This document shows positions 22,563 to 59,325 of a stretch of 64,000 nt of DNA, in pieces. Each line of letters begins with the position of its first letter. The first letter of the stretch is position 1. The stretch spans positions 62,001 through 126,000 of the forward strand of contig NZ_JAIELN010000014.1 in NCBI RefSeq assembly GCF_019753045.1, written 5' to 3'. Made by a program: the position numbers and the translations under genes. The stretch is from Hyphomicrobium sp. (GTDB taxonomy: Bacteria; Pseudomonadota; Alphaproteobacteria; Rhizobiales; Hyphomicrobiaceae). The notes under the pieces were generated by a model. The model worked only from the letters and a program-made list of their open reading frames with translations. It did no database searches and was not told where the DNA came from.

Positions 22563-22581
22563 GGGTCACTTTCCTCCATTT

Positions 22582-22672: not shown

Positions 22673-22677
22673 AATCG

Positions 22678-23973
<1,296 letters not shown>

Positions 23974-24052
23974 TGTCGGTCCTTCAAATGGTCTGGCTGT
24001 CTATGATGGCTCAGCGGAGCAATAGTCGAATTGCTCCGCCGAAACTTGACTG

Positions 24053-25507: not shown

Positions 25508-25524
25508 TATGGTCTCCGGGGGCG

Positions 25525-27012: not shown

Positions 27013-27023
27013 GACACTATGCC

Positions 27024-28370: not shown

Positions 28371-29119
28371 GCGGCCTGTCCTTTTGCGATCTTGCCTCTC
28401 GCAGCGTCGCCGAAGCGACGGAACAGAGCCAGGGATTGAGGATTTGAATGGATCTGCCACTCGGGGTGCCATTGCACGCCGAGTGAAAATGGATGCCCGG
28501 GAACCACCCGCGCAGCTTCGATCAGCCCGTCTTCGGCGAATGCTTCGGCGACGAGCGGCTCGGCAAGGGACTTGATGCCCTGTCCGTGCAGCGAATTGAC
28601 GATGATCTCGTCCTGCGCGAGCCACTTCTTGAGTTCGCCCTTGAGCGTAACCGGATGGCGAGCCGCAAACATCACGTCGAAATCCGTGACCGCCGGCTCG
28701 CGATGATCGGCGTAGTCCTCAAGGGTATGCACGGCCTGGTGCAGCGTGCCGCCGAGCGCGACGTTGAGCTCCTGGAAGCCCCGGCAAATCGCAAAGAGCG
28801 GTAGCTTGCATTCGACGGCCGCGCGGATGAGCGGCAACGTCACCGCATCCCGATCGCGATCGATCGCGTTCGGGAGGATCGGCTCTTCGTCACTGTAATG
28901 CTCGGGGTGAACGTTCGAGATGGCGCCCGTCAAAAGGATGCCGGACGCGACGTCGAGAACCGAGCCGATATCGGCAAGCCCCTTGCCGACCGGAACGAAG
29001 AGCGGCTGGCACTCCGAGCCTTCGACGACCGCGACCGCGTATTTCCGCACGACGGCGTCGGCGGAGAGCCCGCCGACCGTTTCCGTGCTGCAGGGAATTA
29101 TGATGATCGGCCGGCTCAT
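28367..29119 (-). CDS. puuD: Gamma-glutamyl-gamma-aminobutyrate hydrolase (class I glutamine amidotransferase fold)
   Basis: PuuD releases GABA and glutamate from gamma-glutamyl-GABA. The 250-residue peptidase C26 protein has the nucleophile C112 in AICRGFQELNVALGG and the His218/Glu220 pair in GVQWHPEW, completing the triad. An LTGAISNVHPEHY segment precedes it, as in the family. The start at 29119 overlaps the aminotransferase stop (ATGA), and its own stop overlaps the puuA start, so the three genes are translationally coupled. Confidence 0.92.
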   Translation of the reverse strand: MSRPIIIIPCSTETVGGLSADAVVRKYAVAVVEGSECQPLFVPVGKGLADIGSVLDVASGILLTGAISNVHPEHYSDEEPILPNAIDRDRDAVTLPLIRAAVECKLPLFAICRGFQELNVALGGTLHQAVHTLEDYADHREPAVTDFDVMFAARHPVTLKGELKKWLAQDEIIVNSLHGQGIKSLAEPLVAEAFAEDGLIEAARVVPGHPFSLGVQWHPEWQIHSNPQSLALFRRFGDAARGKIAKGQAA

Positions 29120-31545: not shown

Positions 31546-31661
31546 CCTGCGCTCGCACTGCAAACGTGCTGATGACTATAGGATGAGCACGAATTGAAGC
31601 TTGCGTAGATGGCCTCTTGCGACATTATTGGTAAGAACGACCGGTGACCGGGGAGAATGCC

Positions 31662-33047: not shown

Positions 33048-33829
33048 CCATGACAGAGGATCCCTGGGCAAATCTGAAACGGTTCACGGACGCGCGCATC
33101 GGCCTTGGCCGCTCGGGTTCTGCGATGCCGACGCGCGAAGTTCTGAATTTCGCCCTTTCGCACGCCATGGCGCGAGACGCGGTGACGACGCCGATCGATT
33201 GGACGCCGATCGAAAAAGGCCTGTCAAATCTCGGTCTTTCGACGTTGAGAATAGCGAGCGCCGCCACCGATCGGTCGGAATATCTCCGCCGTCCCGACCT
33301 CGGCCGCCGCCTGTCCGACGTCTCGCGCGAGGCGCTCGTTCGCGCATCCGAGGTCGAAGGATCGGCGAAGCCTGATCTCGTCATTCTCGTCGGCGACGGG
33401 CTTTCGTCGCTGGGCGTCGCGGCCAACACGCTGGCCTATATGTCGGCGTTCATGCCCTACGTCGTGAAAGCCGGCTGGAAACTATCGCCGGTCCTACTCG
33501 CCGACGACGCCCGCGTTGCGCTGGGCGACGAAGCCGGCGAAATTCTCGGCGGCAAGGCCGTGCTCGTGTTGATCGGCGAGCGGCCGGGCCTGTCGTCGCC
33601 GGACAGCCTCGGCGTCTACCTCACGTTTTCGCCGCGCATCGGCATCAAGGACGCCGACCGCAACTGCATTTCGAACATTCGTCAGCGCGGCCTCTCTTAC
33701 GATGAGGGCACGTTCAAAACCGCATGGCTGCTGCGGGAAGCGTTCCGGCGCGGGCTGACCGGCGTCAACTTGAAGGACGACTCCCAGTTCCTGATCGAAG
33801 GTCAGCCGGGACCCGAGCTGATCGGATAG
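33044..33829 (+). CDS. eutC: Ethanolamine ammonia-lyase small subunit
   Basis: EutC completes the cobalamin-binding enzyme with EutB. The 261-residue protein has ALVRASEVEG, DLVILVGDGLSSLGVAANT, ALGDEAGEILGGKAVLVLIGERPGLSSPDSLGVYLTF split over residues 165-200, and the C-terminal DADRNCISNIRQRGLSYDEG block, all characteristic. The ATGA overlap with eutB implies coupled translation. It converges on the SDR gene across a hairpin. Confidence 0.95.
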   Translation: MTMTEDPWANLKRFTDARIGLGRSGSAMPTREVLNFALSHAMARDAVTTPIDWTPIEKGLSNLGLSTLRIASAATDRSEYLRRPDLGRRLSDVSREALVRASEVEGSAKPDLVILVGDGLSSLGVAANTLAYMSAFMPYVVKAGWKLSPVLLADDARVALGDEAGEILGGKAVLVLIGERPGLSSPDSLGVYLTFSPRIGIKDADRNCISNIRQRGLSYDEGTFKTAWLLREAFRRGLTGVNLKDDSQFLIEGQPGPELIG

Positions 33830-45358: not shown

Positions 45359-46348
45359 TTACGAGAGGACGCCGGTCTCAACGACGAGACGGCCACGCAC
45401 TTTTCCGGCGAGAAGATCACCCGCGGCTGCGATGGCCTGTTCCAGCGGAATGGTGCGCGTCATGCCATCGAGCTTGTCGAAGTCGATCTCATGGGCGAGA
45501 CGTTTCCAAGCGGTCGTGCGATCCGCAATAGAACGGTAGACGGAGTTGATGCCAACGAGCGTAACGCCGCGCAGAATGAAGGGCGCGACCGTCGTCCGGA
45601 AGTCCAAGCCTTGCGCAAGGCCACATGCAGTGACGACGCCGTCGTCCTTCATGCTCGCGCAGACGTTTGCAAGCGTGTGGCTGCCAACGCTGTCGACTGC
45701 GCCCGCCCATCGAGCCGTTTGAAGCGGCCGGCCCGGCTCCGAAAGCGCTTTGCGATCGATGATCGTCTTCGCGCCCAAGCCTTTCAAGTACTCGGCTTCT
45801 TCGACGCGGCCGGTCGATGCGGCGACGTCGTAGCCGAGGCGCGACAGAATGAGAACGGCAACGCCGCCGACGCCGCCGCCCGCACCCGTTACGATGATCT
45901 CGCCCTTGTCCGGCGTGACGCCTTCGCGTTCGAGCGCCATCACGCATAGCATCGCTGTGTATCCTGCCGTGCCGAGCGCCATCGCGCGGGCAGGGGGCAA
46001 GCCTTCGGGAAGCGGAATGAGCCAGTCACCCTTGACGCGCGCATATTGGGACAGGCCGCCCCAGTGACTTTCGCCGACGCCGAACCCGTTGAGCAGAACC
46101 GCGTCGCCCGCTTTGAAACGGGGATTGCTGCTCTCTTCGACCACCCCTGCGAAGTCGACGCCCGGCACCATCGGGAACGAACGGATGATCGGCCCTTTCC
46201 CGGTAATCGCAAGACCGTCTTTGTAATTGAGTGTCGAATGGCTGATGCGCACCGTCACGTCGCCTTCAGGCAGTGACTGCTTATCGAGTTCCGCAAGACG
46301 AGGCGTTGCGCGCTCGCCGTCTTTTTCTATCAGGATCGCCTTGAACAT
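45359..46348 (-). CDS. acuI: MDR-family NADPH oxidoreductase, acrylyl-CoA reductase (AcuI/YhdH)-like
   Basis: The 329-residue protein has STLNYKDGLAITGKGPIIRSFPMVPGVDFAGVVE, a strong AcuI/YhdH pattern (split over residues 38-72), and a Rossmann site VTGAGGGVGGVAVLIL (about 154-169). It lacks zinc cysteines, as expected for the quinone-reductase branch. The family reduces acrylyl-CoA to propionyl-CoA and also detoxifies acrylate. It lies 113 bases and a hairpin downstream of tdm. No DMSP lyase or other acrylate source is visible here, so its role in this place is open. Confidence 0.85.
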   Translation of the reverse strand: MFKAILIEKDGERATPRLAELDKQSLPEGDVTVRISHSTLNYKDGLAITGKGPIIRSFPMVPGVDFAGVVEESSNPRFKAGDAVLLNGFGVGESHWGGLSQYARVKGDWLIPLPEGLPPARAMALGTAGYTAMLCVMALEREGVTPDKGEIIVTGAGGGVGGVAVLILSRLGYDVAASTGRVEEAEYLKGLGAKTIIDRKALSEPGRPLQTARWAGAVDSVGSHTLANVCASMKDDGVVTACGLAQGLDFRTTVAPFILRGVTLVGINSVYRSIADRTTAWKRLAHEIDFDKLDGMTRTIPLEQAIAAAGDLLAGKVRGRLVVETGVLS

Positions 46349-46461: not shown

Positions 46462-48813
46462 TTACATTTTAACGCGCTTCTTCTCCGGATCGTAGAACGG
46501 AAACGGCACGACCGTCGCCTTGAAACGCTTCTGCAGTCCGTCGAGACGTCCGATCTCGAGCGCTGTCCCCGTCGCCGAATGGGTGACGTCAACCCGCGCA
46601 AACGCGAGCGTCTTTTTAAGAAGCGGCGAGCGCATCGCACTTGTCACCGCGCCGACCTGCGCGCGGCCGACGAACACCGGGTCGCCGTGCGCGGGCTTTT
46701 CGTTCCCCTCAATTTCGAGGCCGACGAGCTTCCGAAGCGGATTAGCGCGCCGCTTCTCGATTGCGGCCTTGCCGATGTAGTCTTCATCTTTCTTCGTCGG
46801 AACGGTGAAGCTGATGCCAGCTTCGAGCGGATCAGTCGTTGAATCGAAATCGTGACCGCCGAAGACGAGGCCGGCTTCGATGCGAACCATGTCGAGCGCA
46901 TCGAATCCGAACGGCTGAATTTTGAACGGCGCACCGGCTTCCATGATCTTATCCCAAACCGCAGGCGCGTCCTTGGGATGACAGAACACTTCGTATCCGA
47001 GTTCGCCCGTATAGCCCGTTCGCGAAACGAGCACCGGAATGCCCGCGACGCCACCGATGCGGCCGACCGTGAAGCGGAAGACGCCGAGCTCCTGCATCGT
47101 CGGCCGGCCAGGCGGCGTCTCGATGATCTTCTGAAGAATTTCCCGCGACTTCGGGCCCTGAACGGCAACGTTGTTGAGTTCCGACGTCGCCGTCTTGAGG
47201 TTCACTTTGTAGTTTGTTTTGGCGAGCTGCTCCTTGAGCCAGATGAGGCTCGCGTCATCGCCGCCGATCCAGCGGAAGTTGTTTTCGCCCAAACGGAACA
47301 GTGTCCCGTCGTCGACCATGCCGCCGTGTTCGTAGCACATCGGCGTATAGTAGATCTGCCCGACCGAAAGCTTGCGAACGTCGCGCGTGATGATGCCGTT
47401 GAGAAACTGCTCGGCATCGGGTCCGAGCACTTCCATCTTCCTGAGGGGCGAGAGGTCCATGATGACCGCCCGTTCACGGCACGCCCAATATTCTTCGATC
47501 GCGCCGGCGTTCGCGTAGCAGTGAGGAACCCAGAAACCGCGGTAATCGCCGAAGTTGCGGGTGAGGGCTGACGTGCGCGGGTGAAATCCCGATTCTCTTG
47601 TCAGCTGAAGCGGAGCATCCGGTGCCATTCTGTATCCGATCGAGCGCTTGAAGGGTGTGTCTTTCGGGTAGACCCGAACGTGTATTTCAGTGAGGTTCCA
47701 GCCGTTCGACGCATCGATATCGGCTGGGCAGGCAGAGGTGCCGCAGACGAGATCCGTCAGCGCGCGCATCATCACGTAGTCGCCGGGACGCGACCAAGGT
47801 TCATCCGACCAGATGTTGTTGTGGCAGTCGACGTTGGTGTTGAAGAAGAAGTTGATCGCCGGCCAGCCCCTGTAGCTGCCAATGGGATAGTCCTTCAGCG
47901 CATCGTTGAAATTATCGCTGCAGTTCGGATGCCCGAAGTAACCCATGTCCTCGTAATAGCGCGTCGTGCACGCAAGGTTGAACGTGTCGTGCCGACCGAC
48001 GGTGTCCTGGACGACCTCGACCAGCGGATTGCGGTCGCGATCGAAGAATTTCGAGAACAAGCCCGGCTTCGGATAGGCCATGCCTGTCATCGACCGCGTC
48101 GTGGTGGAGTCGAGGCCAAGCACGTTGCCCTTATCGAGTTCCCTGCGGTTGAACGCCAGGAAGTCCGAGCACTGTCGCCCGGCCACATCGATGATCTGGA
48201 TGTACTCGCCTTCGTGAACTTCGAAGCTTTCGGCGCTCGAGATGTTGATGCGGATATCGAGACGCGGTTCGGCGATCGGCTCCGGCAGCTTCGCTTCGTT
48301 CAGAAGCCGCGGATTGGCTCGCTGAATGAAAACCAAAATATCGGTTGCGGGCGTCTGTTCCCATACGATCATGGGCTCCGCGGGCGCACCGAAGACGGCG
48401 AGAACCGACCGTTCAACGTCCAGCGAAACGACATCGCCCGGAACGCAATCCGGCCCAAGCACCCTCGCGGCTTTCACGCGACCGATATCGAGCCCCCGCC
48501 TGAACAATCCGAAGCGCACGCGTTGCGCGTCTTCGCTGTCGGCTTCGAGGGCCCGTTGAATTCCCGTCGGCTTGGCACTGCCTTTGAGGCCGAGCGCCCC
48601 GAGATCGCTTTTGCCTCCCGGTGCGAACGCCGCAATTTCCACTCCCTGTCCGCCCTCGAGCGGACTGAGTTCGACGCGGTCGCCCTTGTCGAGTTCGAAG
48701 ACCGCCGTGCCGCCGCCTTTGAGCACGTAGCGCTCGACACCGGGCGCCAGCGATGATTGTCCTGGAACGAAAAGTTTCGGGCGCGCGGGGGACGTCAGAA
48801 CAGTTTCGCTCAT
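46462..48813 (-). CDS. tdm: Trimethylamine N-oxide demethylase (DUF1989 + GcvT domains)
   Basis: The 783-residue protein has an N-terminal DUF1989-type region (about 180-420, with IQIIDVAGRQCSDFLAFNRR, CTTRYYEDMGYFGHPNCSDN and SACPADIDASNGWN) and a C-terminal GcvT-like tetrahydrofolate-binding domain (about 430-783, with ERAVIMDLSPLRKMEVLGPDA, the SRTGYTGELGYEVFCHPKDA block and AGLVFGGHDF). This two-domain layout is that of the TMAO demethylase (Msil_3603) of Methylocella silvestris, which converts TMAO to dimethylamine plus formaldehyde. The conserved Cys residues in the first domain are probable metal ligands; the GcvT domain probably receives the formaldehyde. GAGGACAAG precedes the ATG. 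It directly follows tmm. Confidence 0.93.
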   Translation of the reverse strand: MSETVLTSPARPKLFVPGQSSLAPGVERYVLKGGGTAVFELDKGDRVELSPLEGGQGVEIAAFAPGGKSDLGALGLKGSAKPTGIQRALEADSEDAQRVRFGLFRRGLDIGRVKAARVLGPDCVPGDVVSLDVERSVLAVFGAPAEPMIVWEQTPATDILVFIQRANPRLLNEAKLPEPIAEPRLDIRINISSAESFEVHEGEYIQIIDVAGRQCSDFLAFNRRELDKGNVLGLDSTTTRSMTGMAYPKPGLFSKFFDRDRNPLVEVVQDTVGRHDTFNLACTTRYYEDMGYFGHPNCSDNFNDALKDYPIGSYRGWPAINFFFNTNVDCHNNIWSDEPWSRPGDYVMMRALTDLVCGTSACPADIDASNGWNLTEIHVRVYPKDTPFKRSIGYRMAPDAPLQLTRESGFHPRTSALTRNFGDYRGFWVPHCYANAGAIEEYWACRERAVIMDLSPLRKMEVLGPDAEQFLNGIITRDVRKLSVGQIYYTPMCYEHGGMVDDGTLFRLGENNFRWIGGDDASLIWLKEQLAKTNYKVNLKTATSELNNVAVQGPKSREILQKIIETPPGRPTMQELGVFRFTVGRIGGVAGIPVLVSRTGYTGELGYEVFCHPKDAPAVWDKIMEAGAPFKIQPFGFDALDMVRIEAGLVFGGHDFDSTTDPLEAGISFTVPTKKDEDYIGKAAIEKRRANPLRKLVGLEIEGNEKPAHGDPVFVGRAQVGAVTSAMRSPLLKKTLAFARVDVTHSATGTALEIGRLDGLQKRFKATVVPFPFYDPEKKRVKM

Positions 48814-48850
48814 CTTGTCCTCATTTCGCTAAAGAGCATGACGTTCGGAT

Positions 48851-48880
48851 GTGGACCGGCCGCGTGTGCGGCCAGTCCAC
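48851..48880 (-). other. Hairpin between tmm and tdm
   Basis: A 13-bp stem with one mismatch (GTGGACCGGCCGC against GCGGCCAGTCCAC) and a GTGT loop, in the 94-base spacer. There is no U-tract on the transcribed strand, so it may set relative expression or stability of tmm and tdm. Confidence 0.6.
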
Positions 48881-48907
48881 GATTTGCTTCTTACGTAGCG
48901 AGACTCG

Positions 48908-50269
48908 CTACTCCGCAGCGACCTTGCTCGGCTGATTGAGGAACGCCTCCATCGAGTCGTCGGCAGCTTTCATCCAGGGTGTATGATGGACCGGGGCCAG
49001 CGTGCCGGTCAGCACAGATTTGTGCGAACGGTCGCGATAGGTCAGGATGTCTTCCATCTTGTGATGCTCCCACTCCTTGAACATCTTCGCGACGGTGTCG
49101 ACGTCGAGGCGCGGGTAGTCGGTTGGAGCAAGGAGATCGCGCATATATTCCGTCTGGAAGTCGATGGCGCCTTCCGCATCCGGGATGGCTTCTTCCAGCG
49201 CGGTCCACTTCTGGATGTCGTCGAACATGTCGGATTTCGACGGCAGCTTGATGCGTCCGAGAACGACATCGCGCGCGTACCACGCCTGCGCGTCGAACAT
49301 GTTGAACGTATAGAACTGATCCTGCATGCCGATGTACATCAGCTTCGGATTGTCGATCCAGAAGATGCCCTTGTAGAGGTTCGGCGGATAGAGCCGGTTG
49401 CGTGACTTGAGGCGCAGTGAGTCTTCCATGAACGGATGGTGATGCAGATATCCCGTGCACAGAATGATCGCATCGACGTCCTTCTTGCTGCCATCCTTGA
49501 AGTAGGCTGTCTTGCCTTCGACGCGCTCGAGCAAGGGGACTTCGTCCATGCGAGCCGGCCATTTGAATCCCATCGGCTTCGTGCGCCACGAGAAAGTGAC
49601 GGACTTGGCGCCATATTTGTGGCACTGAATGCCGATGTCTTCCGACGAATAGCTCGCGCCGACGCATAGAACGTCCTTGCCTGCGAACTCGTCAGCCGAT
49701 CGGAAGTCGTGCGAATGCAGCGTGCGTCCAAGGAAGTGGGTCAGACCGGGGAATTCCGGAATGTTCGGCGTCGAGAAATGGCCGCTGCCGCAGAAGACGT
49801 AGTCGAATTCCGATGACGAGAGCGTATCGGCGACGAGATCCTTCACCGTCACGGTGAACTTTTGCGTCTCTTCGTTGAATGTGACGCTGCGGACCGCTGT
49901 GCTGAGCTTGATGTAGTGCATGATGCCGCTGCGTTCGATGCGGCCCTTGATGTAGTCGTGCAGCACGGCCCGCGGTGGGAACGAGGGGATCGGACGTCCG
50001 AAGTGCTCTTCGAATGAGTAGTCGGCGAACTCCAGACATTCCTTCGGTCCGTTCGACCAAAGATAGCGGTACATGCTGGCGTGAACCGGCTCGCCGAACT
50101 CATCCGTTCCGGTGCGCCACGTATAGTTCCAAATACCCCCGCAATCCTTCTGCCGCTCGTAGCAGACCATTTCGGGAATATCCGCGCCCTTGCGCCGGGC
50201 GCTCTCGAATGCGCGCAAAACCGCCATGCCGCTCGGGCCGGCGCCGATAATAGCTATTCGCTCTGCCAT
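48908..50269 (-). CDS. tmm: Trimethylamine monooxygenase (bacterial FMO)
   Basis: Tmm oxidises trimethylamine to TMAO with NADPH and O2. The 453-residue flavoprotein has the FAD site GAGPSG (9-14), the FMO signature FLGRTLHSHDF (179-189), and an NADP-binding GASYSSEDIG (204-213). Tyr207 is at the position known from structural work on the Roseovarius Tmm to move with the nicotinamide during catalysis. The YERQKDCGGIWNYTWRTG and FPPRAVLHDYIKGR segments are typical of this group. Neighbouring tdm and dmm genes use its product and the dimethylamine derived from it, confirming the assignment. Confidence 0.95.
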   Translation of the reverse strand: MAERIAIIGAGPSGMAVLRAFESARRKGADIPEMVCYERQKDCGGIWNYTWRTGTDEFGEPVHASMYRYLWSNGPKECLEFADYSFEEHFGRPIPSFPPRAVLHDYIKGRIERSGIMHYIKLSTAVRSVTFNEETQKFTVTVKDLVADTLSSSEFDYVFCGSGHFSTPNIPEFPGLTHFLGRTLHSHDFRSADEFAGKDVLCVGASYSSEDIGIQCHKYGAKSVTFSWRTKPMGFKWPARMDEVPLLERVEGKTAYFKDGSKKDVDAIILCTGYLHHHPFMEDSLRLKSRNRLYPPNLYKGIFWIDNPKLMYIGMQDQFYTFNMFDAQAWYARDVVLGRIKLPSKSDMFDDIQKWTALEEAIPDAEGAIDFQTEYMRDLLAPTDYPRLDVDTVAKMFKEWEHHKMEDILTYRDRSHKSVLTGTLAPVHHTPWMKAADDSMEAFLNQPSKVAAE

Positions 50270-50327
50270 TTGGTGTCCTTCCGAAAAATCAATTCGCTAG
50301 GATTTTCTGACTTCGTAAGTGCGTGGA

Positions 50328-51455
50328 TCAGGCTTTGTCGTGGGGATGTGTGCGAAGGCGGAGAGGATCGTAGAACGGCATCCGCACCACGGTCGCCGGC
50401 CAGTCGCCGCCGTCATGGACGACGAGTTCGGTGCCGAGTTTGGTGTAAGCGGGTTCGATCTGCGCCATCGCAAGCGATTTCATGAGATGCTTGCTGTAGG
50501 TCGTGCTGGTGATGACGCCGACCTCTTTGCCGTTCGCCGTGATTTTGGAGCCGGGCGCGATCGCTTTCGTGTGATCGACCTCAAGGCCGGTAACGAACGT
50601 ACGTTCCTTGCCCTTCTTCTCGACGAGCGCCTTCTTGCCGATGAAGTCCGGTTTCGAGAGATCGACGGTCCAGTCGGCCTTCACTTCCCAGGGCGTCGTA
50701 TCTTCGTTCGTCATCTCGCACGGGAAGAACAGCAGACCGCCTTCGACGCGCACGATGTCGAGGCATGCCCACGATACCGGGATAAGCCCTTTATCCTTGC
50801 CCGCGGCCAGGATGGAATCCCACATCTTGTGCGCATCCTTGGCCGCGCAGAAAACTTCATATCCAAGCTCGGCCGAATAGCCGCCGCGAGCGAGACGCAC
50901 CGGCGTTCCGAACAACGTCGACGTTCCATGCTTGAAGTAGCCGAGCCCGGCGAGATCCATCGGCGTATGCGGCGCGAGGATTTCGAGCGAAAGCGGCCCC
51001 TGCAATGCCAGCACGTGGACATCGTCATCGCGCTCGACCTTGACATCGTACTTCGGCGCGAGCGCGCGGATTGCCTCTTCGACCTTTCCTGCACCGTGAG
51101 AAAGGCGGTACTCGGTCGGGCTATCGACGTAGATGAGAACGTCGTCGATCAACCCGCCATTTTCATTGACGATATTTGAAATATGCGAGTCGCCCGGCTT
51201 GGCTTTGGAGATGTCGGACGTCAGCACATAATTGAGGAGCTTCGTCGCGTCGGGCCCCGACACGTTGAGCAACTGCAGCGACGAGACGTCAAAGAGCCCT
51301 GCCCGGCAACGAACGGCTTCGACTTCCACATAGGGATCGGTCGCGTACGTCTGCGGAAGCGGCATGTTGTTCCACGACACGGACTCGAGATCGCCTCCGT
51401 TCGCCCGATGGCGATCGTTGAGAATGGACTGACGTGGCAAATCGGCTAGGGACAT
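50328..51455 (-). CDS. dmmD: GcvT-fold protein of the dimethylamine monooxygenase system
   Basis: The 375-residue protein is an aminomethyltransferase-fold protein throughout: RCRAGLFDVSSLQLLNVSGPDATKLLNYVLTSDISKAKPGD (over residues 49-90), ALQGPLSLEIL, the RGGYSAELGYEVFCAAKDA block and EGGLLFFPCEM. It has the folate-binding layout of GcvT and resembles the C-terminal half of Tdm. Position between tmm and dmmA matches dmmD of the dmmDABC set in Ruegeria and Methylocella relatives. It probably moves the oxidised methyl group from dimethylamine onto tetrahydrofolate. DMSP demethylase (DmdA) has the same fold but is not supported by the setting. Confidence 0.87.
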   Translation of the reverse strand: MSLADLPRQSILNDRHRANGGDLESVSWNNMPLPQTYATDPYVEVEAVRCRAGLFDVSSLQLLNVSGPDATKLLNYVLTSDISKAKPGDSHISNIVNENGGLIDDVLIYVDSPTEYRLSHGAGKVEEAIRALAPKYDVKVERDDDVHVLALQGPLSLEILAPHTPMDLAGLGYFKHGTSTLFGTPVRLARGGYSAELGYEVFCAAKDAHKMWDSILAAGKDKGLIPVSWACLDIVRVEGGLLFFPCEMTNEDTTPWEVKADWTVDLSKPDFIGKKALVEKKGKERTFVTGLEVDHTKAIAPGSKITANGKEVGVITSTTYSKHLMKSLAMAQIEPAYTKLGTELVVHDGGDWPATVVRMPFYDPLRLRTHPHDKA

Positions 51456-51520
51456 GAGAGCTACCTCTTGCTTGTTTTTTGATCGCTTCGGCTTTGGGGG
51501 TGTTCTTCAATTTGGTTCGC

Positions 51521-52561
51521 TTAGTCGGGACCTCCGCCAGGTGAGGTCGGAGCGCCGTCGTCGTATGGCGCAAGGTACGCAAGTGCCATGTCGCGGTAGC
51601 GGCCGAGGCTTTTGTACTCGACGAGTTCAGGCGGCAGCGAAGCGAGAACGCGCGGCAGGCGGCGGCCCCATTTCGGCACGGTGACGATCTGCTCGAGGCT
51701 CATCAGATAACCGCGGATCGAGAACAAGATTGCGTTCGATCGGGGCAACCTGAAGAGGCCCTGCATCTCGACGCGCAGATGCACTTTCTGGCCGACATTC
51801 TCCGGCGTCACGGTCATGCGATCGCTGGCCCACTTGTGATAGTTCTCGGGGCTCGTATCGAGACGCGGATTGATCGTCATCGTCCAGTTCAAGCGGCGAA
51901 CCGGTTTGCCGATCTGCAGATTGAGAAGAAATTTCAACGCGCGCTCGAAAACGCCGGCCTCGTGCGCGAGCGGCACCGGTCCGTGCCATTCGAAGAAGTT
52001 CATGCCGACGTCGAAGTCGAGCGACCAGTCGGCTTGCGACGTGATGATGCCAGCATCCATCCAGAGCTGGTTATCGCGCTGGTCTTGGATCGAGAAATCG
52101 CCCTGCACCTGACGGCCGATAAATTCCATCGGAGGGTAGGGCAGCGTGCTCGCATCGAGGAACGTGAACTTCTGGTCGATGCCGAGCGGCCGGTTGATCC
52201 AATGCCACGCCGTACCGTCGCGATGGAGCGTGAAGTGCTCGGGATAATCGCGCGCAAGCGATGTCATGAGCAACTCGAGCATGTCCCACTGCGCCGTCAT
52301 CATGTGCGGCAGAGCTTGGCATCGCAAAGGATCTGCGGCGAGAACCATCGCACGATCGCGCATTTCCGAAACGTAATGCTCGTCGACGTCGAAGTGGTGC
52401 TCGAACGGAGACCCCTTCGGGCCCGGCGTATGCGGCTCGATATTGACCGAATACCGGTACTGATCCTCGACGAAAGGAAACGGAAACCGCCGGATGTTGG
52501 ACGGACTGTTTGTGTACGTGAAGTCGTCTCGAAAAGTCTCGTTTCTAAATGTCAGTCCCAT
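51521..52561 (-). CDS. dmmA: Dimethylamine monooxygenase catalytic subunit, haem-dependent oxidative N-demethylase family (DUF3445)
   Basis: The 346-residue protein belongs to the DUF3445/HODM family, whose members bind haem and N-demethylate secondary amines. Recognised pieces are RFPFPFVEDQYRYSVNIEP at the N-terminus, LDASTLPYPPMEFIGRQVQGDFSIQD, and a C-terminal VEMQGLFRLPRSNAILFSIRGYLMSLEQI. Haem ligation by a nearby His cannot be fixed from sequence alone. It is 37 bases after dmmB, which should deliver electrons, and upstream of dmmD. The C-terminus is short and Gly/Pro-rich. Together with dmmB and dmmC it converts dimethylamine to methylamine and formaldehyde. Confidence 0.9.
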   Translation of the reverse strand: MGLTFRNETFRDDFTYTNSPSNIRRFPFPFVEDQYRYSVNIEPHTPGPKGSPFEHHFDVDEHYVSEMRDRAMVLAADPLRCQALPHMMTAQWDMLELLMTSLARDYPEHFTLHRDGTAWHWINRPLGIDQKFTFLDASTLPYPPMEFIGRQVQGDFSIQDQRDNQLWMDAGIITSQADWSLDFDVGMNFFEWHGPVPLAHEAGVFERALKFLLNLQIGKPVRRLNWTMTINPRLDTSPENYHKWASDRMTVTPENVGQKVHLRVEMQGLFRLPRSNAILFSIRGYLMSLEQIVTVPKWGRRLPRVLASLPPELVEYKSLGRYRDMALAYLAPYDDGAPTSPGGGPD

Positions 52562-52598
52562 ACCATGATCTCCCGGATAGGAATTTTTGGATTGTTCT

Positions 52599-53561
52599 TT
52601 AGAGATCGAGAGTGATCGATCCTGTTTGAATGCGAGACATGCAGATCATGATCTTCTTGCCGCTCACGCGCTCGGGCTCGGTGAGGAAGTGGTCGTTGTG
52701 CTCGATGAAGCCGTCGCACGCGACGACCTGCGTTTCGCATTGACCGCAAGCGCCGCCGCGACAGAGGAAAGGCGCGTCGACCCCGTTCTCTTCGAGTGCT
52801 TCGAGAATGCTTTGGTGCCCGCGCACAATGACCTCTCGGCCCGACCGCGCCAACTTCACGAGGAACTGCTTACCCGGAGGCGGAGCACTGAATTGCTCGG
52901 AGTGCACGTTCTCGTCGGGCCAGCCGAGCAGCTTCGCCGTCTGCAGCGACCACTCGATCATTGGCTTTGGCCCGCAGACGTACACATGCGTGCCGAGCCG
53001 CTGGTCGCCCAGAATGCGCTCGAGCGGGATCAGCTGACCCTGGTCCTGGCGATAGATATTCACCCGCGATCCGTAGCGAGATTGCAGATATTTGCAGTAG
53101 GCGCCGTCTTCGAGCGAGCGAACGCCGTAGTGCAGCTCGAAGTCGGAATGCAGCCCGTCGAGCTCGTTCATCATCGACATGAAAGGCGTGATGCCGATGC
53201 CGCCTGCGATCAGCACATGCTTCTTCGCAAGCTTGGCTGGCGGAAAGAGATTGAGCGGCTGCCCGATCTCGAGTTCCGTGCCAACGGAGACCTTCTCATG
53301 CATGAACTTCGAGCCGCCACGGGAATCCTCGACGTTCAAAACGCTGATTTGATAGCTCGACGTATCCGAGGGCGCTCCCATGAGCGAATAGGGATTACGC
53401 AAGAGACGGTCGCCAGCGTGCATGACGACCGAAATGTGAGATCCACCCGAAAACTCCGACAGCGGAGCATTGTCAACATCGACGAAGCGAAAGCGCTTGA
53501 TGCGGTTCGCCACACGTTCCACCTCGGCGACCCGAACGCGCCGTAGAAGAGATCCACTCAT
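52599..53561 (-). CDS. dmmB: Dimethylamine monooxygenase reductase subunit (flavin + 2Fe-2S)
   Basis: The 320-residue protein has an N-terminal flavin/NAD(P)H reductase module (about 1-215, with RNPYSLMGAP for flavin, AGGIGITPFMSMMNEL for NAD(P), and YVCGPKPMIEW) and a C-terminal plant-type 2Fe-2S ferredoxin domain with C267, C272, C275 and C307. This is the layout of one-component oxygenase reductases such as VanB. It should pass electrons from NAD(P)H to the haem of DmmA. Its start overlaps the dmmC stop by 4 bases. Confidence 0.92.
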   Translation of the reverse strand: MSGSLLRRVRVAEVERVANRIKRFRFVDVDNAPLSEFSGGSHISVVMHAGDRLLRNPYSLMGAPSDTSSYQISVLNVEDSRGGSKFMHEKVSVGTELEIGQPLNLFPPAKLAKKHVLIAGGIGITPFMSMMNELDGLHSDFELHYGVRSLEDGAYCKYLQSRYGSRVNIYRQDQGQLIPLERILGDQRLGTHVYVCGPKPMIEWSLQTAKLLGWPDENVHSEQFSAPPPGKQFLVKLARSGREVIVRGHQSILEALEENGVDAPFLCRGGACGQCETQVVACDGFIEHNDHFLTEPERVSGKKIMICMSRIQTGSITLDL

Positions 53562-54160
53562 TGGTACAGCGCCTCCGTCGGCGGGATTTCACCAGGAACT
53601 TCCGCGTCGATGCACACGCCTTGGAACGCGGCAAGCCGACGGGAGTAGTGGTCGCGCACCAGCAGTGTGAGGCCGCAATGGGTGCATTTCACCGGGTTCG
53701 TCGTGACGTTCTCGATGTAACCCTTGCAATGGACGCATTGAACGCGCCGCATGAGCGAGCCGCGATGCTCGGTGCGGATAGACAAGTGGTCGATCGAGAA
53801 ATCGAGGCCCGCCTGCACGACGAGGCCGATGAGAGGTTCGGAACCGGCCGCGTAAAGGCGCAGGCCCATGGGTGCCGTTTCAAGAAGTTGCCGCAGACGT
53901 GCGATGCCATCGGCAAGAGTTGGCTGAATTTCGACTGCAGCCGGCGCAAGATCGCGACTGAGCGTTTGGGTTTCGGTAGCAGACAGGCTGTCCGCCAGAA
54001 TGATGGTCGTCCGCTCCGCAAAGGCGCTGTCGGCGCGCGAAAACAACTCGGTGACTGCCGCCGCACCCGCTTTGTCACAGACGATGATGTTGCGTCGCGC
54101 GTTGAGATCCGGGCTGAGACCCGGATAGATTGGCCGGCTTTTGATAGTGCTTACCGTCAT
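53558..54160 (-). CDS. dmmC: Dimethylamine monooxygenase subunit DmmC (zinc-ribbon protein)
   Basis: The ATG at 54160, preceded by GGAGC, gives 200 residues; the longer frame from 54256 overlaps a hairpin and is not conserved. The N-terminal two thirds resemble a short alpha/beta domain (IIVCDKAG, TTIILADSLSATE) and the C-terminus has a four-Cys site, C142-x2-C145 and C159-x2-C162, followed by HYSRRLAAFQGVC. The order dmmC-dmmB-dmmA on the minus strand matches the known dimethylamine monooxygenase genes. The molecular job of DmmC is not well defined; an electron-transfer or assembly role is possible. Confidence 0.87.
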   Translation of the reverse strand: MTVSTIKSRPIYPGLSPDLNARRNIIVCDKAGAAAVTELFSRADSAFAERTTIILADSLSATETQTLSRDLAPAAVEIQPTLADGIARLRQLLETAPMGLRLYAAGSEPLIGLVVQAGLDFSIDHLSIRTEHRGSLMRRVQCVHCKGYIENVTTNPVKCTHCGLTLLVRDHYSRRLAAFQGVCIDAEVPGEIPPTEALYQ

Positions 54161-54217
54161 CAATTGCTCCCTGAATCCATCAGGCCACATGCCCGGGACC
54201 TGCGGAAAGTGATCAGA

Positions 54218-54254
54218 GCAGATCGGAGCGGAGGAGGAAACCGCCCCGATCTGC
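54218..54254 (-). other. Hairpin between the TMAO permease and dmmC
   Basis: Arms GCAGATCGGAGCGG (54218-54231) and CCGCCCCGATCTGC (54241-54254) pair over 14 positions with one mismatch and a 9-base loop. It begins 7 bases after the permease stop and has no U-tract. It could hold back or protect the message at the permease/dmm boundary. Confidence 0.6.
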
Positions 54255-54261
54255 AATTTCT

Positions 54262-56055
54262 CTAGGCAGGCAGCTGGAAGAACCAGTTCGACACCAGGAC
54301 TACGAGCAAGCCAGCCACGAGAACAAGATAGGGAAGCACCCCGGCCTTCCGCGTTTTCAAGTCGCCCTGCGTCAGGCCCAGATCCTCCAGCATGTGGGCA
54401 GGAAAGACGCCTTTATCCTGCACGTAATGGCGGAAGCAGAACACCGGAATGATCAGCGATGCGGTGAACAGGCCGGCCCACAATGCGACGGGATTCCAGA
54501 CCTTCGCTCCCGCGCCCATGAAGACGGCATTGACGAACGCGAACACCGCGCCGATGGCAAGCACGAAGCTCGGTGCGCGCCACGGACGATGGACGCCGGC
54601 GTTATCGATGCGGTGGATCCAACCTGAATTGAGGTTCAGGAAGTTGAAGATGATGTAACCGCAGTTCGAAACGGCGAGGATGAAGAAGAAGCTCGTAGCG
54701 TCTGCACAGGCGATCGCGAGGACCGCGAGGTTGATCACGAGATCGGTCCACATCGCGCGCGTCGGTGCACCGTGTTCATTAACGTGGCTGAGGTAGCGAG
54801 GCAGCCAGCCATCGCGCGAGCCCTGATAAAGGGTGCGCGATGATCCGGCCATCGCGGTCATCAGGCACAACATGAGCGCCAGGATCATGAGCATGACGAG
54901 CAGGCTCGTGAGCATTCCGCCGTGGCCGACCATGTTGGCCATGGCCGCAGCGACACCGGAACCATCGACGATCGACGGCTCGAGCATACCCTCGAGACCC
55001 AAAACCCCTTGGAAGGTGAAGGGCACGAGCGTGAAGAGTACGAGGCAAAGCAGACCCGAATAGAAGATCGCCTTGAACGTATCGCGGCCCGGATCGCGGA
55101 ATTCGCTCGTGTAGCAAATCGCCGTTTCAAATCCGTACGTGGACCACGCGGCGATGAACATGGCGCCGAGAATGAGCGTCCAGCCCGCGATATCCCAATG
55201 GCCCATTTCCGGAGCATAGGCCGCTTTCAGCGGCTCGAGCGGCGTGAAGTTCGACCAGTTGATCTGGCCCGTGATGATCGGCACGATGCCGACGATGAAC
55301 ATCGGAATGATCACCGCGAGGCCGATATATTTCTGAACGCTGGCGGTGCCGAGAATGCCTCGGTGCTGAATGGCGAACGTGATCAGCATGAGCACCGCGC
55401 CGATGAAGAACGCGGCGTTGAAAGAGAACGACACGGGTCCGAGAGTTCCGTGGAAGAGGGACCAGTTGCGGATCTCCGGCGTCAGCGCAGCAATGGCATC
55501 CGTTGAAAGGAGAGCTGCGACCGCGTCCGCTGCCGTCTTGCCGTGATTTGCTGCGAGCCACTCGGCGACGCGAGGAGAATCGAGCGGGATCGACGCGGCG
55601 TGGGCACTGACCCAAGCGGCGACTTGCGGCGCATCAGCCGGTGGGACGGCTGCCAGAGAGTTCAGGATGTAGGCGGCTGCGATCGAGCACCCGAGCGAGA
55701 GCACGGGCGACCACGCGAACCAGTTGCACCAGACGGACAACGGCGCGATCAGCTTGGAATATCTCACCCATGCCGCTGCGCCATAGACCGAGGCGCCGCC
55801 CGATTTGTTCGGGAAGAGTCCGGCTATTTCTGCGTATGTGAAGGACTGGATAAGCCCCATGAGCATCGAGACGAACCAAACGAGAAAGGCAACCTTTCCC
55901 GCTACGCCCGCGATGCCGCCGATGGAAAACAGGACAAGAGCTGGGACGCCGCTGGCGACCCAAAACGCTCCCCTCCAGTCGATGGCTCGGACGAGTTTGC
56001 CGGACGACGCGTCAAACGCGCTACCCGCAGTATGCACTCCAGTATCTATGGCCAT
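54262..56055 (-). CDS. APC-superfamily permease, likely TMAO permease
   Basis: The 597-residue membrane protein has about 12-14 hydrophobic helices with APC features: VPALVLFSIGGIAGVAG, FTYAEIAGLFPNKSGGASVYGAAAW, and GFETAICYTSEFRDPGRDTFKA. An unusual hydrophilic, Ala-rich loop of about 70 residues (about 140-215) interrupts the N-terminal half. In Methylocella silvestris an APC permease in the tdm cluster (Msil_3606) is required for growth on TMAO, and the position here is the same in kind. Transport of other methylated amines cannot be excluded. GGAGCGATC precedes the ATG. It is the first gene of the leftward series. Confidence 0.8.
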   Translation of the reverse strand: MAIDTGVHTAGSAFDASSGKLVRAIDWRGAFWVASGVPALVLFSIGGIAGVAGKVAFLVWFVSMLMGLIQSFTYAEIAGLFPNKSGGASVYGAAAWVRYSKLIAPLSVWCNWFAWSPVLSLGCSIAAAYILNSLAAVPPADAPQVAAWVSAHAASIPLDSPRVAEWLAANHGKTAADAVAALLSTDAIAALTPEIRNWSLFHGTLGPVSFSFNAAFFIGAVLMLITFAIQHRGILGTASVQKYIGLAVIIPMFIVGIVPIITGQINWSNFTPLEPLKAAYAPEMGHWDIAGWTLILGAMFIAAWSTYGFETAICYTSEFRDPGRDTFKAIFYSGLLCLVLFTLVPFTFQGVLGLEGMLEPSIVDGSGVAAAMANMVGHGGMLTSLLVMLMILALMLCLMTAMAGSSRTLYQGSRDGWLPRYLSHVNEHGAPTRAMWTDLVINLAVLAIACADATSFFFILAVSNCGYIIFNFLNLNSGWIHRIDNAGVHRPWRAPSFVLAIGAVFAFVNAVFMGAGAKVWNPVALWAGLFTASLIIPVFCFRHYVQDKGVFPAHMLEDLGLTQGDLKTRKAGVLPYLVLVAGLLVVLVSNWFFQLPA

Positions 56056-56498
56056 GATCGCTCCAGCTGAGCCTGCTCATTGATAAATCTTCGTGCAGTG
56101 ATCGATCCCCGAGCTAGGCGCAGAAGCGCGGCCGCCGCGTGAAGCAAAAAAGCACGATCCCCCGTCGGGCCCGGCATTGGCGTGACGCAAGCAGATGGTT
56201 TTGCGACATAAACCAATTTAAACCAGTAATTACCGCAATTAGCCCAACACGACCATGTTACGGAGTGACGAATTACCCGCAAGTCAAAAAAATCACCAAA
56301 AAGAAACGACACTGATCATTTCGCAGGCACAAAATCCAGATTTCATCGATATTAAACGCAGTTAGCCGCAATATCGCAGGTGCGAACCTACTTTGGCTGG
56401 CATTGGTTGAATTCGGTTGCATTCTGGTTTCGAGGAAGGCATCTTTTTTCCCAATTGGGGATGGGCAATTTCCTCCGAAATCTGAATTGCAGGCGCGC
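56056..56498. promoter_or_regulatory. Divergent control region of the amine island
   Basis: About 440 bases between the permease and the TPR-like gene, clearly AT-richer than its surroundings (56200-56380). It should hold the promoters for both directions and the sites for the GntR regulator. The only exact repeat I find is the TAAACCA pair at 56209-56225; no sigma-54 promoter was recognised. Confidence 0.65.
56209..56225 (+). repeat. 10-bp-phased direct repeat in the amine control region
   Basis: TAAACCA occurs at 56209-56215 and again at 56219-56225, one helical turn apart. Same-face spacing fits a protein binding site, about 155-170 bases upstream of the permease start. Confidence 0.45.
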
Positions 56499-57242
56499 GT
56501 GGCTGAGATTGAGATGTGGACGGATCAGAGCCTGCAGGCCTTCGCGGCAATGGCACGCTTACAGATCAATGATGCTGCACGCTTGTGGCTTCGCGCAGCG
56601 GCAATCGTCGAGGCTGCCCCGTCTCCGGCGTCATCGCTCGCTGCGAGCCGTTCGAACGTCGGCGTCGCGCACACCATCCTCGGCAACGCAAACGAAGCCC
56701 GCCACGCCTTTCGCGAAGCGGAGAAGGGTTGGCGGCTGGTTGTTGCCGGCATCGCGACGCTCGACATCCCAATGACCGGCGCGACCTCGTTTCACTTCCG
56801 GCTCGCAACGAAGGTCCCGCACGCGCTGATCGAAGCGCGCCGCCAGCGATATCGTCAGCTTGCGGAAGCAGCACTCTCCATCACCCGCTTCAATCGTCTC
56901 CTCATCGATGCTGGCGATCCGGCGTCCGAAATAGTGACGCTTCAGGCGCGCGACCTGAGGGCGATGCTGAGGGAGATCCTGGGCGCAAGTTCGCCCGAAG
57001 TTCGCCTGCTCGCGACGGCTGCTGAGCAGGCAGCGGACGCATCTGTCTTTTCGAGCTACGCGGCGAAAGCTGCGGATTTCGCGAATCGACAGCATACGCT
57101 TTCGACGGCGCTCTCCGAGGATTGTGCGGCTTTGGAAACCGCCGTCGCGCTTACCGCACTGCTCGGGCCCCAGACATTTTCCGCAGTGCGTCATCTGCGG
57201 GAAACCGAAAAGGCCCGTTCTGAAATTGGAATGCAACATTAG
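56499..57242 (+). CDS. Uncharacterised helical protein with TPR-like region
   Basis: I do not recognise this protein. From the GTG at 56499 (AGGCGCGC upstream) it has about 247 residues; an ATG at 56514 and a TTG at 56403 are alternatives. It is almost entirely alpha-helical by composition. Residues about 15-70 (AARLWLRAAAIVEAA, then SRSNVGVAHTILGNANEARHAFREAEKGW) have the hydrophobic and Gly/Ala spacing of tetratricopeptide repeats. The middle has an IEARRQRYRQLAEAALSI helix. There is no signal peptide or membrane helix. It ends 14 bases before the GntR gene and starts divergently from the TMAO permease, so it is probably regulated with the amine genes. Confidence 0.6.
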   Translation: MAEIEMWTDQSLQAFAAMARLQINDAARLWLRAAAIVEAAPSPASSLAASRSNVGVAHTILGNANEARHAFREAEKGWRLVVAGIATLDIPMTGATSFHFRLATKVPHALIEARRQRYRQLAEAALSITRFNRLLIDAGDPASEIVTLQARDLRAMLREILGASSPEVRLLATAAEQAADASVFSSYAAKAADFANRQHTLSTALSEDCAALETAVALTALLGPQTFSAVRHLRETEKARSEIGMQH

Positions 57243-57256: not shown

Positions 57257-58027
57257 ATGTCTGATACCTACGACTTCGAAGCGCCTCCCTGGATCGACGA
57301 TGTCACGCGCCATCCGCTCGTCACGCCGCGGGTGAAGGAAATCGCCACGAGGCTGTTCGCTCGCTTTGCGTCGGGGGAATATCCGTTCGGAACGCGAATT
57401 CCGGCCGAGCGGGACTTGGCCGATGCGTTCGGTGACAGCCGGGCGACGATACGTCAGGCGCTTGAGTTCTTGGCCACATACGGGATCGTCGCCCGCCGTC
57501 CGGGAAGCGGCACGTTCGTTTCATATCAACGAAAGCGCTCGTCTCACGACAGCAGGGATGAGCGCACCTCGTCGTTTCCTGGCGTCGACCAACTCGTCGA
57601 GACCGCGTCGCCGTTCGCGATGAATATAGCGAGTTCCATCCTGGCGCCTGAGATGACGCGCCTCGCAACCATTTACATGTCGGCGCGAGACGTCGCCGAT
57701 CTCCAAAATCAGCTCATCCAACTCGAAGCGATCGTCACCGAATCCGACACGTTCGCGATATTGGAAGAAGAATTCATGATGGCCATCGCCCGCGGCACGC
57801 ATAACTCGCTGGTCGTCGCGATGTACGCAATTCTGCATGAGGTACGGCGCCATCCGCAGTGGGCGTCAGCCCGTCGGCAGGCACTGACGCCGGCGAAAAT
57901 CAAGAGCATCCAGCTGATGTTCAGGTCGCTCTACGATGCGATCGAGCGGCGAAACGTCGAGACGGCCGTCGAGATCATCAGACTCTACTTCGCCAACGCG
58001 CACGAAGACATGATCTACGAGTCCTGA
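57257..58027 (+). CDS. GntR-family regulator, FadR subfamily (FCD domain)
   Basis: The 256-residue protein has the GntR winged helix at about 22-90 (LFARFASGEYPFGTRIPAERDLADAFGDSRATIRQALEFLATYGIVARRPGSGTFV split across it) and an all-helical C-terminal FCD ligand domain. The conserved acidic/His metal ligands of FCD are hard to place; FMMAIARGTHNSLVVAMYAIL and YFANAHEDM carry candidate His residues. Its position beside the TPR-like gene and divergent from the TMAO/dimethylamine genes makes it the best candidate regulator of that island. It overlaps the 3' end of the solute-binding gene by 13 bases. Confidence 0.87.
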   Translation: MSDTYDFEAPPWIDDVTRHPLVTPRVKEIATRLFARFASGEYPFGTRIPAERDLADAFGDSRATIRQALEFLATYGIVARRPGSGTFVSYQRKRSSHDSRDERTSSFPGVDQLVETASPFAMNIASSILAPEMTRLATIYMSARDVADLQNQLIQLEAIVTESDTFAILEEEFMMAIARGTHNSLVVAMYAILHEVRRHPQWASARRQALTPAKIKSIQLMFRSLYDAIERRNVETAVEIIRLYFANAHEDMIYES

Positions 58028-59325
58028 GCCGTCAAACGATCGAGTGTCTCGGCAGACGCGGCGAGGTGTTCGCGCTGATCCCACATCAGGTTCATTGACC
58101 GCATGTGCTTTACGAGGGTCGACCGGTGTTTTGACCACCAGTCCGCGATCGAGCCGAACTCTTGAATCCGCGCCTTGCCATTGACGATCGCGACGACGGG
58201 CCATTCTCCGACGAGCGCGTTATCGATCCCGAACAGATCTTTTCCCCACCATCGGGCTTCGCCGAAAGCGTGCGGACCGATGCCGCCGACCTTCATCGCC
58301 GCGAGAACGGAGAACGGCTCGAAGGTGCGCGCACGCTGCACGGCTGATTTCCAAAGTTCCAGCGTCGAGGCGTATTCCCACGACACCGCGCTCCATGTTC
58401 CCGGGAAGCGGCGGCAAAACTCGTCGTAGAATTTGCCGGGATCTTCGAAGTTCGTATGGCCATCGTTGAGGCGAGGATCGTCGAAGTCCGGAAACTGGAA
58501 GATGAAGCCTTCCATGAATTCGACGCTCGTGCGCCGGATGAGCTCCGGATAGTTGTCGCACGTGCACGACAAAAGGCGGCCGCGGAAGCCGCGTTTGAAT
58601 GCTTCGATCGTAAGCGAATGGACAAACGGCTCATACGCCGTATCCCAACAGAGGATATCCGGCCTTTTCGCCATCAGTTCGTCGACGATCGGCCCGAAAT
58701 CGCTCGTTTCCGGGTCGAATACGCGCTCGGCGACAAGCTCGATGCCGGCCGCTTCGAAGGCCGCTCTGTAGGTGGCGATGGACGGCAGGCCGAGAAGATC
58801 GCGCTGCGCACACAACGCCGCCGTCTTGAGTTCCGGATGGTTCCGCCTCAGCCATTCGACGCCGGTCACGTTGTAGATTGGATGGACTTCGCTCGGCGCA
58901 ACAAGCGTCGGCACGTCCGGCGACAGATCGCTCGGCAGAAGCGTCGCGACGAGCATGCGATGCTGGCTGATGAGCCGTCGGACTTCAGCCGTCAGGTCGT
59001 TGCCGCCGATCATGAGGATGAGCTTCACGCCATCCTCCATGATTAGCTTCCGTGCGCCTTGAAGCGCCAGGTCGGGCTGATAGTTGGTGTCGAACTGGAC
59101 GAGTTCGAGCTTGTACTTCCGGCTGCCGATCTTCAGGCCGCCGGTCGCGTTGATCCGCTCGACCCAAATGAGACTGCCGTTGAATCCCGGCAGTGCCCAG
59201 GCTTTGAGTGGTCCTGTCAGCGGAGCGAGGATGCCGATCTTCAGAACCGTTTGTGAACCGAGTCCGAAGTCCCTCATTGCAACCGCCAGAGCCGATGCGA
59301 CGGCGCTCCTGGGTCTAACGGCCAT
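58015..59325 (-). CDS. Orphan solute-binding protein (Peripla_BP_6 / Leu-Ile-Val-binding type) without a clear signal peptide
   Basis: The 436-residue protein has the two-lobe binding fold of branched-chain amide/amino acid receptors: VLKIGILAPLTGPLKAWALPGFNGSLIWVERINATGG at the N-terminus (over residues 26-62), ARKLIMEDGVKLILMIGGNDLTAEVRRLI, and TYRAAFEAAGIELVAERVFDPETSDFGPIVDEL. No convincing hydrophobic signal peptide precedes the fold; starts at 59325 or at 59277 (MRDFGLG) both begin almost at the domain. No ABC permease or ATPase is near. It could be a cytoplasmic amide/amine sensor of the AmiC type or an exported receptor with a mis-set start. It converges on the GntR gene. Confidence 0.7.
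   Translation of the reverse strand: MAVRPRSAVASALAVAMRDFGLGSQTVLKIGILAPLTGPLKAWALPGFNGSLIWVERINATGGLKIGSRKYKLELVQFDTNYQPDLALQGARKLIMEDGVKLILMIGGNDLTAEVRRLISQHRMLVATLLPSDLSPDVPTLVAPSEVHPIYNVTGVEWLRRNHPELKTAALCAQRDLLGLPSIATYRAAFEAAGIELVAERVFDPETSDFGPIVDELMAKRPDILCWDTAYEPFVHSLTIEAFKRGFRGRLLSCTCDNYPELIRRTSVEFMEGFIFQFPDFDDPRLNDGHTNFEDPGKFYDEFCRRFPGTWSAVSWEYASTLELWKSAVQRARTFEPFSVLAAMKVGGIGPHAFGEARWWGKDLFGIDNALVGEWPVVAIVNGKARIQEFGSIADWWSKHRSTLVKHMRSMNLMWDQREHLAASAETLDRLTAQDS

Follow-up and report, generated by a model that had tools for sequence, protein, structure and literature searches.

What do the genes on the minus strand at positions 46462-56055 of a 64,000-nucleotide stretch of Hyphomicrobium sp. 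(contig NZ_JAIELN010000014.1; this whole stretch is referred to below as the window) do together, and how are they controlled? The reading that we favour, to which a probability of about 0.93 is assigned, is that they constitute an operon for catabolism in a methylotroph resembling Hyphomicrobium, by which trimethylamine (TMA) would be converted to methylamine by way of trimethylamine N-oxide (TMAO) and dimethylamine (DMA). The operon is a gene set of an already known kind, of which the window provides a clear and complete case in such a methylotroph. It matters less than the cassette that lies beside it, in which a binding protein lacking an export signal is conserved together with a regulator and is a direct candidate for amine sensing.

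Gene order and identities of the enzymes

The series consists of seven intact open reading frames, arranged head to tail on the minus strand, as was claimed in an earlier account made from the letters of the window (the sequence-only reading). That account had listed the genes in a different succession; their arrangement as one head-to-tail set stands, but as transcribed they run permease-dmmA-dmmB-dmmC-dmmD-tmm-tdm. The successive intergenic gaps in this order are 5, -4, 37, 65, 58 and 94 nucleotides. The frame of dmmA opens with a TTG at 54256; an alternative ATG at 54160, which is preceded by GGGAG, appears to be the likelier start, and with it the gap between the permease gene and dmmA is about 100 nucleotides.

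The genes, their families, their residues and their order are observed directly. Tmm passes the NCBIfam equivalog model NF058570 (811.2 bits, cut-off 675), belongs to the FMO-like family of Pfam and matches the structures 8b2d (E 1.2e-213) and 2xve (E 4.1e-204) in phmmer searches. It carries FxGxxxHxxxF at residue 179, which we take to be a fingerprint of flavin monooxygenases (FMO), and Tyr at residue 207, which is presumably of significance in Tmm; both of these features had been named beforehand and both are present. Tdm, which had been described as DUF1989 joined to GcvT, contains the Pfam domains DUF1989 and GCV_T, passes the equivalog model NF053776 over its whole length (1201.9 bits, cut-off 1100, residues 19-782) and matches the solved structure 9q59 (phmmer, E 2.1e-257). 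Its residues D217, C282, H295, C298, C362 and D365 correspond, at a constant offset of 19, to the Zn/Fe-site residues D198, C263, H276, C279, C343 and D346 of the Methylocella silvestris protein, as given in the cited part of PMC12560246.

The other members of the series are identified with different degrees of specificity. The permease passes the TMAO permease model NF053774 (894.2 bits, cut-off 690). All three components of a DMA monooxygenase are present, viz. a protein of the DmmA family (domain model NF041259, 107.5 bits, cut-off 60), a 2Fe-2S reductase (DmmB, with the Pfam domains Fer2 and NAD_binding_1) and a haem N-demethylase-like protein (DmmC, of the Pfam family HODM_asu-like with 239 bits against a cut-off of 25, and matching the haem N-demethylase structure 5lte in phmmer with E 1.1e-142). 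DmmD has a GCV_T domain (211.6 bits, cut-off 25.6) together with PF08669. It was also considered as a dimethylsulfoniopropionate demethylase (DmdA) or a plain GcvT protein, and it falls under the cut-offs of both models. The names DmmB and DmmD are putative assignments based on Pfam domains and gene position.

Based on these identities, TMAO or a similar methylated amine would enter through the permease; as a flavin monooxygenase, Tmm would oxidize TMA to TMAO; Tdm, with its Zn/Fe DUF1989 and GcvT domains, would split TMAO into DMA and formaldehyde; and DmmABC, with C as the haem subunit, B as the reductase and A as the small subunit, would convert DMA to methylamine and formaldehyde. The GcvT-like DmmD may hand one-carbon units to tetrahydrofolate. 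The same course from TMA to methylamine was put forward in the sequence-only reading and is supported here; however, its wording that all the steps are aerobic is too strong for the TMAO step, because Tdm demethylates TMAO with or without oxygen (PMC12560246, in the part cited).

The operon in relatives and in known systems

In a scan of species genomes for Tdm, the best 79 loci of a longer list were kept, many of which are cut by contig ends. All seven genes are found in the same order and on the same strand in nine of these 79 loci (L005, L006, L007, L008, L010, L011, L012, L018 and L024), which are titled Hyphomicrobium or, for two metagenome-assembled genomes (MAGs), Proteobacteria bacterium. 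Identity to the proteins of Hyphomicrobium facile DSM 1565 (L007) is 95-99% per protein.

The same seven genes are present in M. silvestris BL2 as Msil_3603-3609 (tdm, tmm, dmmD, TMAO permease, dmmABC), where Msil_3606, between dmmD and dmmABC, is presumably the permease. Both the Tdm and the permease model have names ending in Msil and were probably built on M. silvestris proteins. The place of dmmD differs between the two organisms: in the window it lies between dmmC and tmm, whereas in M. silvestris dmmD is Msil_3605 and dmmABC are Msil_3607-3609, according to the cited part of PMC5520151. The TMA cluster SPO1548-1588 of Ruegeria pomeroyi (tmm, tmoR, tdm, dmmDABC, gmaS-mgsABC, mgdABCD) encodes the same enzymes; however, R. 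pomeroyi has an ATP-binding cassette (ABC) importer, tmoXWV, and an AraC activator, TmaR, whereas in the window an APC permease stands beside the enzymes. As stated in the portions cited, this gene set has been tested genetically both in R. pomeroyi, including mutants (PMC5520151), and in mutants of P. aminophilus (PMC4543880).

The methylamine step

The sequence-only reading held that the genes for the final step are outside the window, that methylamine must be handled elsewhere, and that the genome should be searched for gmaS, mgs and mgd or mau genes. A glutamine-synthetase-like gene at 27024-28625 (minus strand) of the window was considered as GmaS and was rejected on score and context: it reaches 178.9 bits of the 650 required for gamma-glutamylputrescine synthetase and 177.7 of the 469.6 required for type III glutamate-ammonia ligase, and it sits among aldehyde dehydrogenases and aminotransferases. 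On these grounds the statement about the window stands.

In the source genome, whose assembly is 97.27% complete, there are 11 glutamine-synthetase-type matches, 4 to GXGXG and 2 to SoxD, and the genes that had been expected elsewhere were found. On contig C14 (L098) the following genes are consecutive: mgdA (DAO), mgdB (SoxD), mgdC (sarcosine oxidase alpha family, 1385.5 bits), mgdD (SoxG, 25.4 bits, cut-off 21), an XRE-cupin regulator, mgsA (glutamine amidotransferase), mgsB (GXGXG), mgsC (Glu_synthase) and gmaS. For the last of these the match to type III glutamate-ammonia ligase reaches 670.7 bits, and since this is a broader family, GmaS is named by its context. A second gmaS-mgsABC set is located on contig C4 (L099:9529-16812), with an XRE-cupin regulator and a second protein of the TMAO permease family. 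As judged from these genes, the methylamine step found in the genome is the N-methylglutamate route, and the methylamine from the operon would be finished by this pathway. No match of the mauA type, which would indicate methylamine dehydrogenase, was seen in the genome, where at 97.27% completeness absence is not proved; in a control scan of 289 genomes of the class with this family, 10 matched (9 over the cut-off), the source genome not being one of them.

No trimethylamine dehydrogenase was found among the two Oxidored_FMN matches of the genome either. The longer of these, in L100, is closer to 2,4-dienoyl-CoA reductase (250 bits) than to trimethylamine dehydrogenase (at most 164.5 bits, compared with 1315.3 for the homologue in L148), and the shorter, a frame of 356 amino acids, was dismissed by its length alone.

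Some other genes of related function may be recorded here. LysR and XRE-cupin regulators adjoin the mgd/mgs genes. Within the window, an amine-catabolism stretch at 19694-30501 (minus strand) comprises aldehyde dehydrogenases, aminotransferases and a gamma-glutamylputrescine-synthetase-like protein below cut-off, and genes for ethanolamine ammonia-lyase, EutB and EutC, follow at 31644-33829 (plus strand). Seven pyrroloquinoline quinone alcohol dehydrogenase genes, one of them in two pieces, are over the cut-off in the genome, which fits a methylotroph.

Points against the catabolic reading

A number of points weigh against the reading of the locus as an operon for TMA catabolism. DmmA has no solved relative at E <= 0.001, DmmB and DmmC are below every NCBIfam equivalog cut-off, and the role of dmmD is unsettled in the literature, so far as the cited part of PMC5520151 goes. 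Three paralogues of the TMAO permease family, with 60-66% mutual identity, are present in the genome, and because all of them pass NF053774, the term TMAO is here the name of a family and not a result on substrate; the two paralogues outside the operon stand in other gene contexts. The seven genes are not all in this order in 70 of the 79 best Tdm loci, where they are arranged differently, are in part absent or are cut by the end of the contig. Further, the activities, co-transcription and the permease substrate are deduced from the genes.

It has also to be considered that Tmm acts mainly on another substrate, for example dimethyl sulfide, and that the cluster does not serve growth on amines. 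Tmm has been discussed as a dimethyl sulfide oxidase. We regard this as very improbable, since Tdm, Dmm and the N-methylglutamate set, whose presence in the genome is observed, have no part in dimethyl sulfide metabolism, and the order of the genes binds Tmm to Tdm and Dmm.

With regard to the permeases, at least one member of the TMAO permease family is found in 19 of 22 genomes of the genus, the source genome included, and the third paralogue (contig C14; L119:6283-13533) lies beside an OpuAC-type ABC importer and a glutamine amidotransferase. The family may cover several methylated amines.

A GntR regulator and its convergent binding protein

Beyond the 5' end of the operon, an ORF designated orfX and a gene for a GntR/FCD regulator, in which both the GntR and the FCD domains are found, are encoded on the plus strand, followed by a convergent gene of the Peripla_BP_6 family that overlaps the regulator gene by 13 nucleotides. 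Besides the window, 28 loci hold this binding protein, viz. at least 20 of the best 79 Tdm loci and 8 plasmid regions, the latter picked by their match to the binding protein (ten were examined of 119 plasmid records). A GntR gene is convergent to the binding-protein gene in 25 of these 28 loci, in some of them with a short gap and not an overlap; the exceptions are L036 and L152, with no GntR gene near, and L151, where it is about 4 kb away. In Mesorhizobium, Aminobacter, Pseudaminobacter, Paracoccus, Falsirhodobacter and Ponticoccus, it is the binding-protein gene of this cassette that is on the side of tmm, the two being head to head; in Hyphomicrobium it is the GntR gene that is on the side of the operon. 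It looks as if the pair was inverted as one block and was not separated. On plasmid IV of P. aminovorans (L148:8968-19239) the cassette is beside a trimethylamine dehydrogenase homologue (1315.3 bits) and electron-transfer flavoprotein (ETF) genes, with no tmm there. Judging by this one locus, the association of the cassette is with methylated amines, whichever of two dissimilar enzymes is present, and it would follow the substrate and not the enzyme.

According to the cited parts of two papers, tmm of R. pomeroyi is repressed by the GntR regulator TmoR (SPO1553), the genes tmoR and tmm being usually separated by one of unknown function (PMC13390433), and a periplasmic binding protein (PBP) of the HAAT family has been named in tmm/tdm/tmoR neighbourhoods (PMC4744692). 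The cassette in the window is turned round relative to tmm in comparison with R. pomeroyi, SPO1552 and SPO1553 having been compared by description and not by sequence. No paper naming SPO1552 was found in a search of open-licence PMC.

Absence of an export signal in the cassette clade

The binding protein has the periplasmic-binding-protein fold, with AmiC among the tied best folds and transport proteins making up most of the top of the list. Its relatives were placed in a tree of 46 rows, which were trimmed to begin roughly where the binding fold does and for which the distant L174 served as root; six Hyphomicrobium-type loci with a partial binding protein (L005, L006, L007, L008, L010 and L011) are omitted from it, and the long rows L174 (the outgroup), L152 and L036 are less certain in their placement. 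A single clade (support 100/100) unites the 25 binding proteins of the cassette type, and a convergent GntR gene is present in 24 of these rows. None of the 22 clade members with a visible N-terminus (it is cut in L012, L018 and L024) has an export signal by either of two sequence rules, whereas a signal is present in all 21 rows outside the clade, 20 of them of the twin-arginine (Tat) type and one of the Sec type. Among these 21 rows, 18 are called Tat by the first rule, which misses L163, L152 and L174, and 19 by the second, which misses L157; none of the 20 Tat rows is missed by both. The state of L174, exported (Sec-like), was assigned manually, as were the GntR labels. With L157 counted as Tat, a single branch divides the signal-less rows from all the others; with L157 counted as lacking a signal, the tree needs two state changes. 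No GntR gene was found in the examined flanks of the 21 outside rows, where one farther off could be missed, since the flanks for part of the relative loci extend to at most about 1.5 kb and are shorter for L157, L172 and L176. An LPR motif near the former end of the signal, noted by eye, is common to many rows of both kinds and looks like a relic of the signal.

The exported form is divergent to tmm in 8 of 20 loci (L158, L159, L160, L162, L164, L165, L166 and L167), and branched-chain-type ABC permease genes above the Pfam cut-off are beside it in L162, L164, L166 and L161 (no tmm was seen in the last); in L158 a cut-off piece of an ABC permease reaches 25.8 of 26.8 bits. These loci, together with a fold that is that of ABC binding proteins and with export having been judged by sequence rules and not by a signal-peptide predictor, could be taken to mean that the GntR-paired protein is likewise an exported component of transport, with an unrecognised signal and an incidental place beside the regulator. 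However, this is unlikely in view of the contrast between the clade and the outside rows, and there is also no room upstream for a signal in the window, where no more than three codons lie between the in-frame stop and the ATG, in L019, where there are none, or in L015. In addition, no ABC gene is beside the binding protein in the window, its neighbours being the GntR gene and a hydrolase, and none is adjacent among the listed genes of L149, L150, L154, L155, L177 and L178, for which the plasmid gene tables are incomplete. In L153 an efflux-type ABC set begins about 4.9 kb away, and the ABC set that begins about 2.6 kb away in L151 has its own Tat-bearing binding protein.

A proposed cytosolic amine sensor

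The alternative, for which we consider the chances to be about even, is that the gene between tmm and tmoR encodes a formerly Tat-exported ABC binding protein, which lost its signal once, in a single lineage, and may now act in the cytosol as the methylamine (DMA/TMAO) sensor of the GntR repressor. Regulation of the operon, of which we are less sure than of its chemistry, would then involve a TmoR-type GntR repressor and the adjoining non-exported binding protein as its ligand sensor. A binding-protein-like sensor paired with a regulator is known from AmiC-AmiR, the amidase regulator of P. aeruginosa, and from NasS-NasT, and NasS, like the protein in the window, is described as having no export signal, unlike its relatives in the periplasm (PMC3795266, in the part cited). 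However, the partners of AmiC and NasS are RNA-binding ANTAR antiterminators, whereas the fold and the missing signal are here combined with a DNA-binding GntR/FCD neighbour. Due to this, the protein is not placed in the AmiC/NasS type, although it may work alike; the sensor would pair with a GntR/FCD regulator instead of an ANTAR protein, a pairing for which no priority is claimed.

The cassette could also regulate something else, with the TMA genes as chance neighbours, or the GntR protein could sense a ligand of its own FCD domain unaided. FCD domains themselves bind small ligands, one of the 25 clade members (L151) has no adjacent GntR gene, and repression of tmm by TmoR was shown with no mention of the binding protein in the cited part of PMC13390433. 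We consider this possible but doubtful, as the cassette is beside tmm in Hyphomicrobium, in Mesorhizobium, Aminobacter and Pseudaminobacter, and in Rhodobacterales, as well as beside the dehydrogenase homologue and ETF genes of P. aminovorans, and in the reports noted above TmoR represses tmm, and a HAAT-family PBP is named in the tmm/tdm/tmoR neighbourhoods. In the TmoR study (2026) the effectors, DMA and TMAO, were inferred from mutants, and only the DNA-binding domain was purified (PMC13390433, in the part cited).

Features of the locus and neighbouring genes

Table 1. Positions and supporting matches of the operon genes and of the genes beyond its 5' end
Feature	Position	Strand	Basis
APC permease, TMAO permease family	54262..56055	-	NF053774
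dmmA, dimethylamine monooxygenase subunit	53558..54160	-	NF041259, PF22290, PF22289; four C-terminal Cys
dmmB, flavin/2Fe-2S reductase	52599..53561	-	PF00175, PF00111; Cx4Cx2C...C motif
dmmC, haem N-demethylase subunit	51521..52561	-	PF11927; 5lte match
dmmD, GcvT-like protein	50328..51455	-	PF01571, PF08669
tmm, trimethylamine monooxygenase	48908..50269	-	NF058570; 8b2d, 2xve matches; Tyr207
tdm, TMAO demethylase (DUF1989 + GcvT)	46462..48813	-	NF053776; 9q59 match; metal-site residues
Divergent intergenic region, presumed operon promoter/operator	56056..56402	.	inferred from place between permease start and first plus-strand ORF
orfX, weakly TPR-like protein	56403..57242	+	TPR_12 20.5 bits, below cut-off 30.1
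GntR/FCD regulator, TmoR-type by position only	57257..58027	+	PF00392, PF07729; usually convergent with binding-protein gene
Substrate-binding protein without export signal, proposed cytosolic sensor	58015..59325	-	Peripla_BP_6, PF13458, 136.3 bits

Directly downstream of tdm, at a spacing of 113 nucleotides, is acuI (45359-46348, minus strand), whose product scores 541.1 bits as acrylyl-CoA reductase (cut-off 440) and which is kept in this place in seven near relatives (L005-L011). The fast-evolving orfX, just upstream of the GntR gene, is seen in 13 of the 79 best Tdm loci (E <= 1e-3), all of them Hyphomicrobium-type. In a Hyphomicrobium MAG (L017:3-4445), two binding-protein/GntR cassettes are present back to back.

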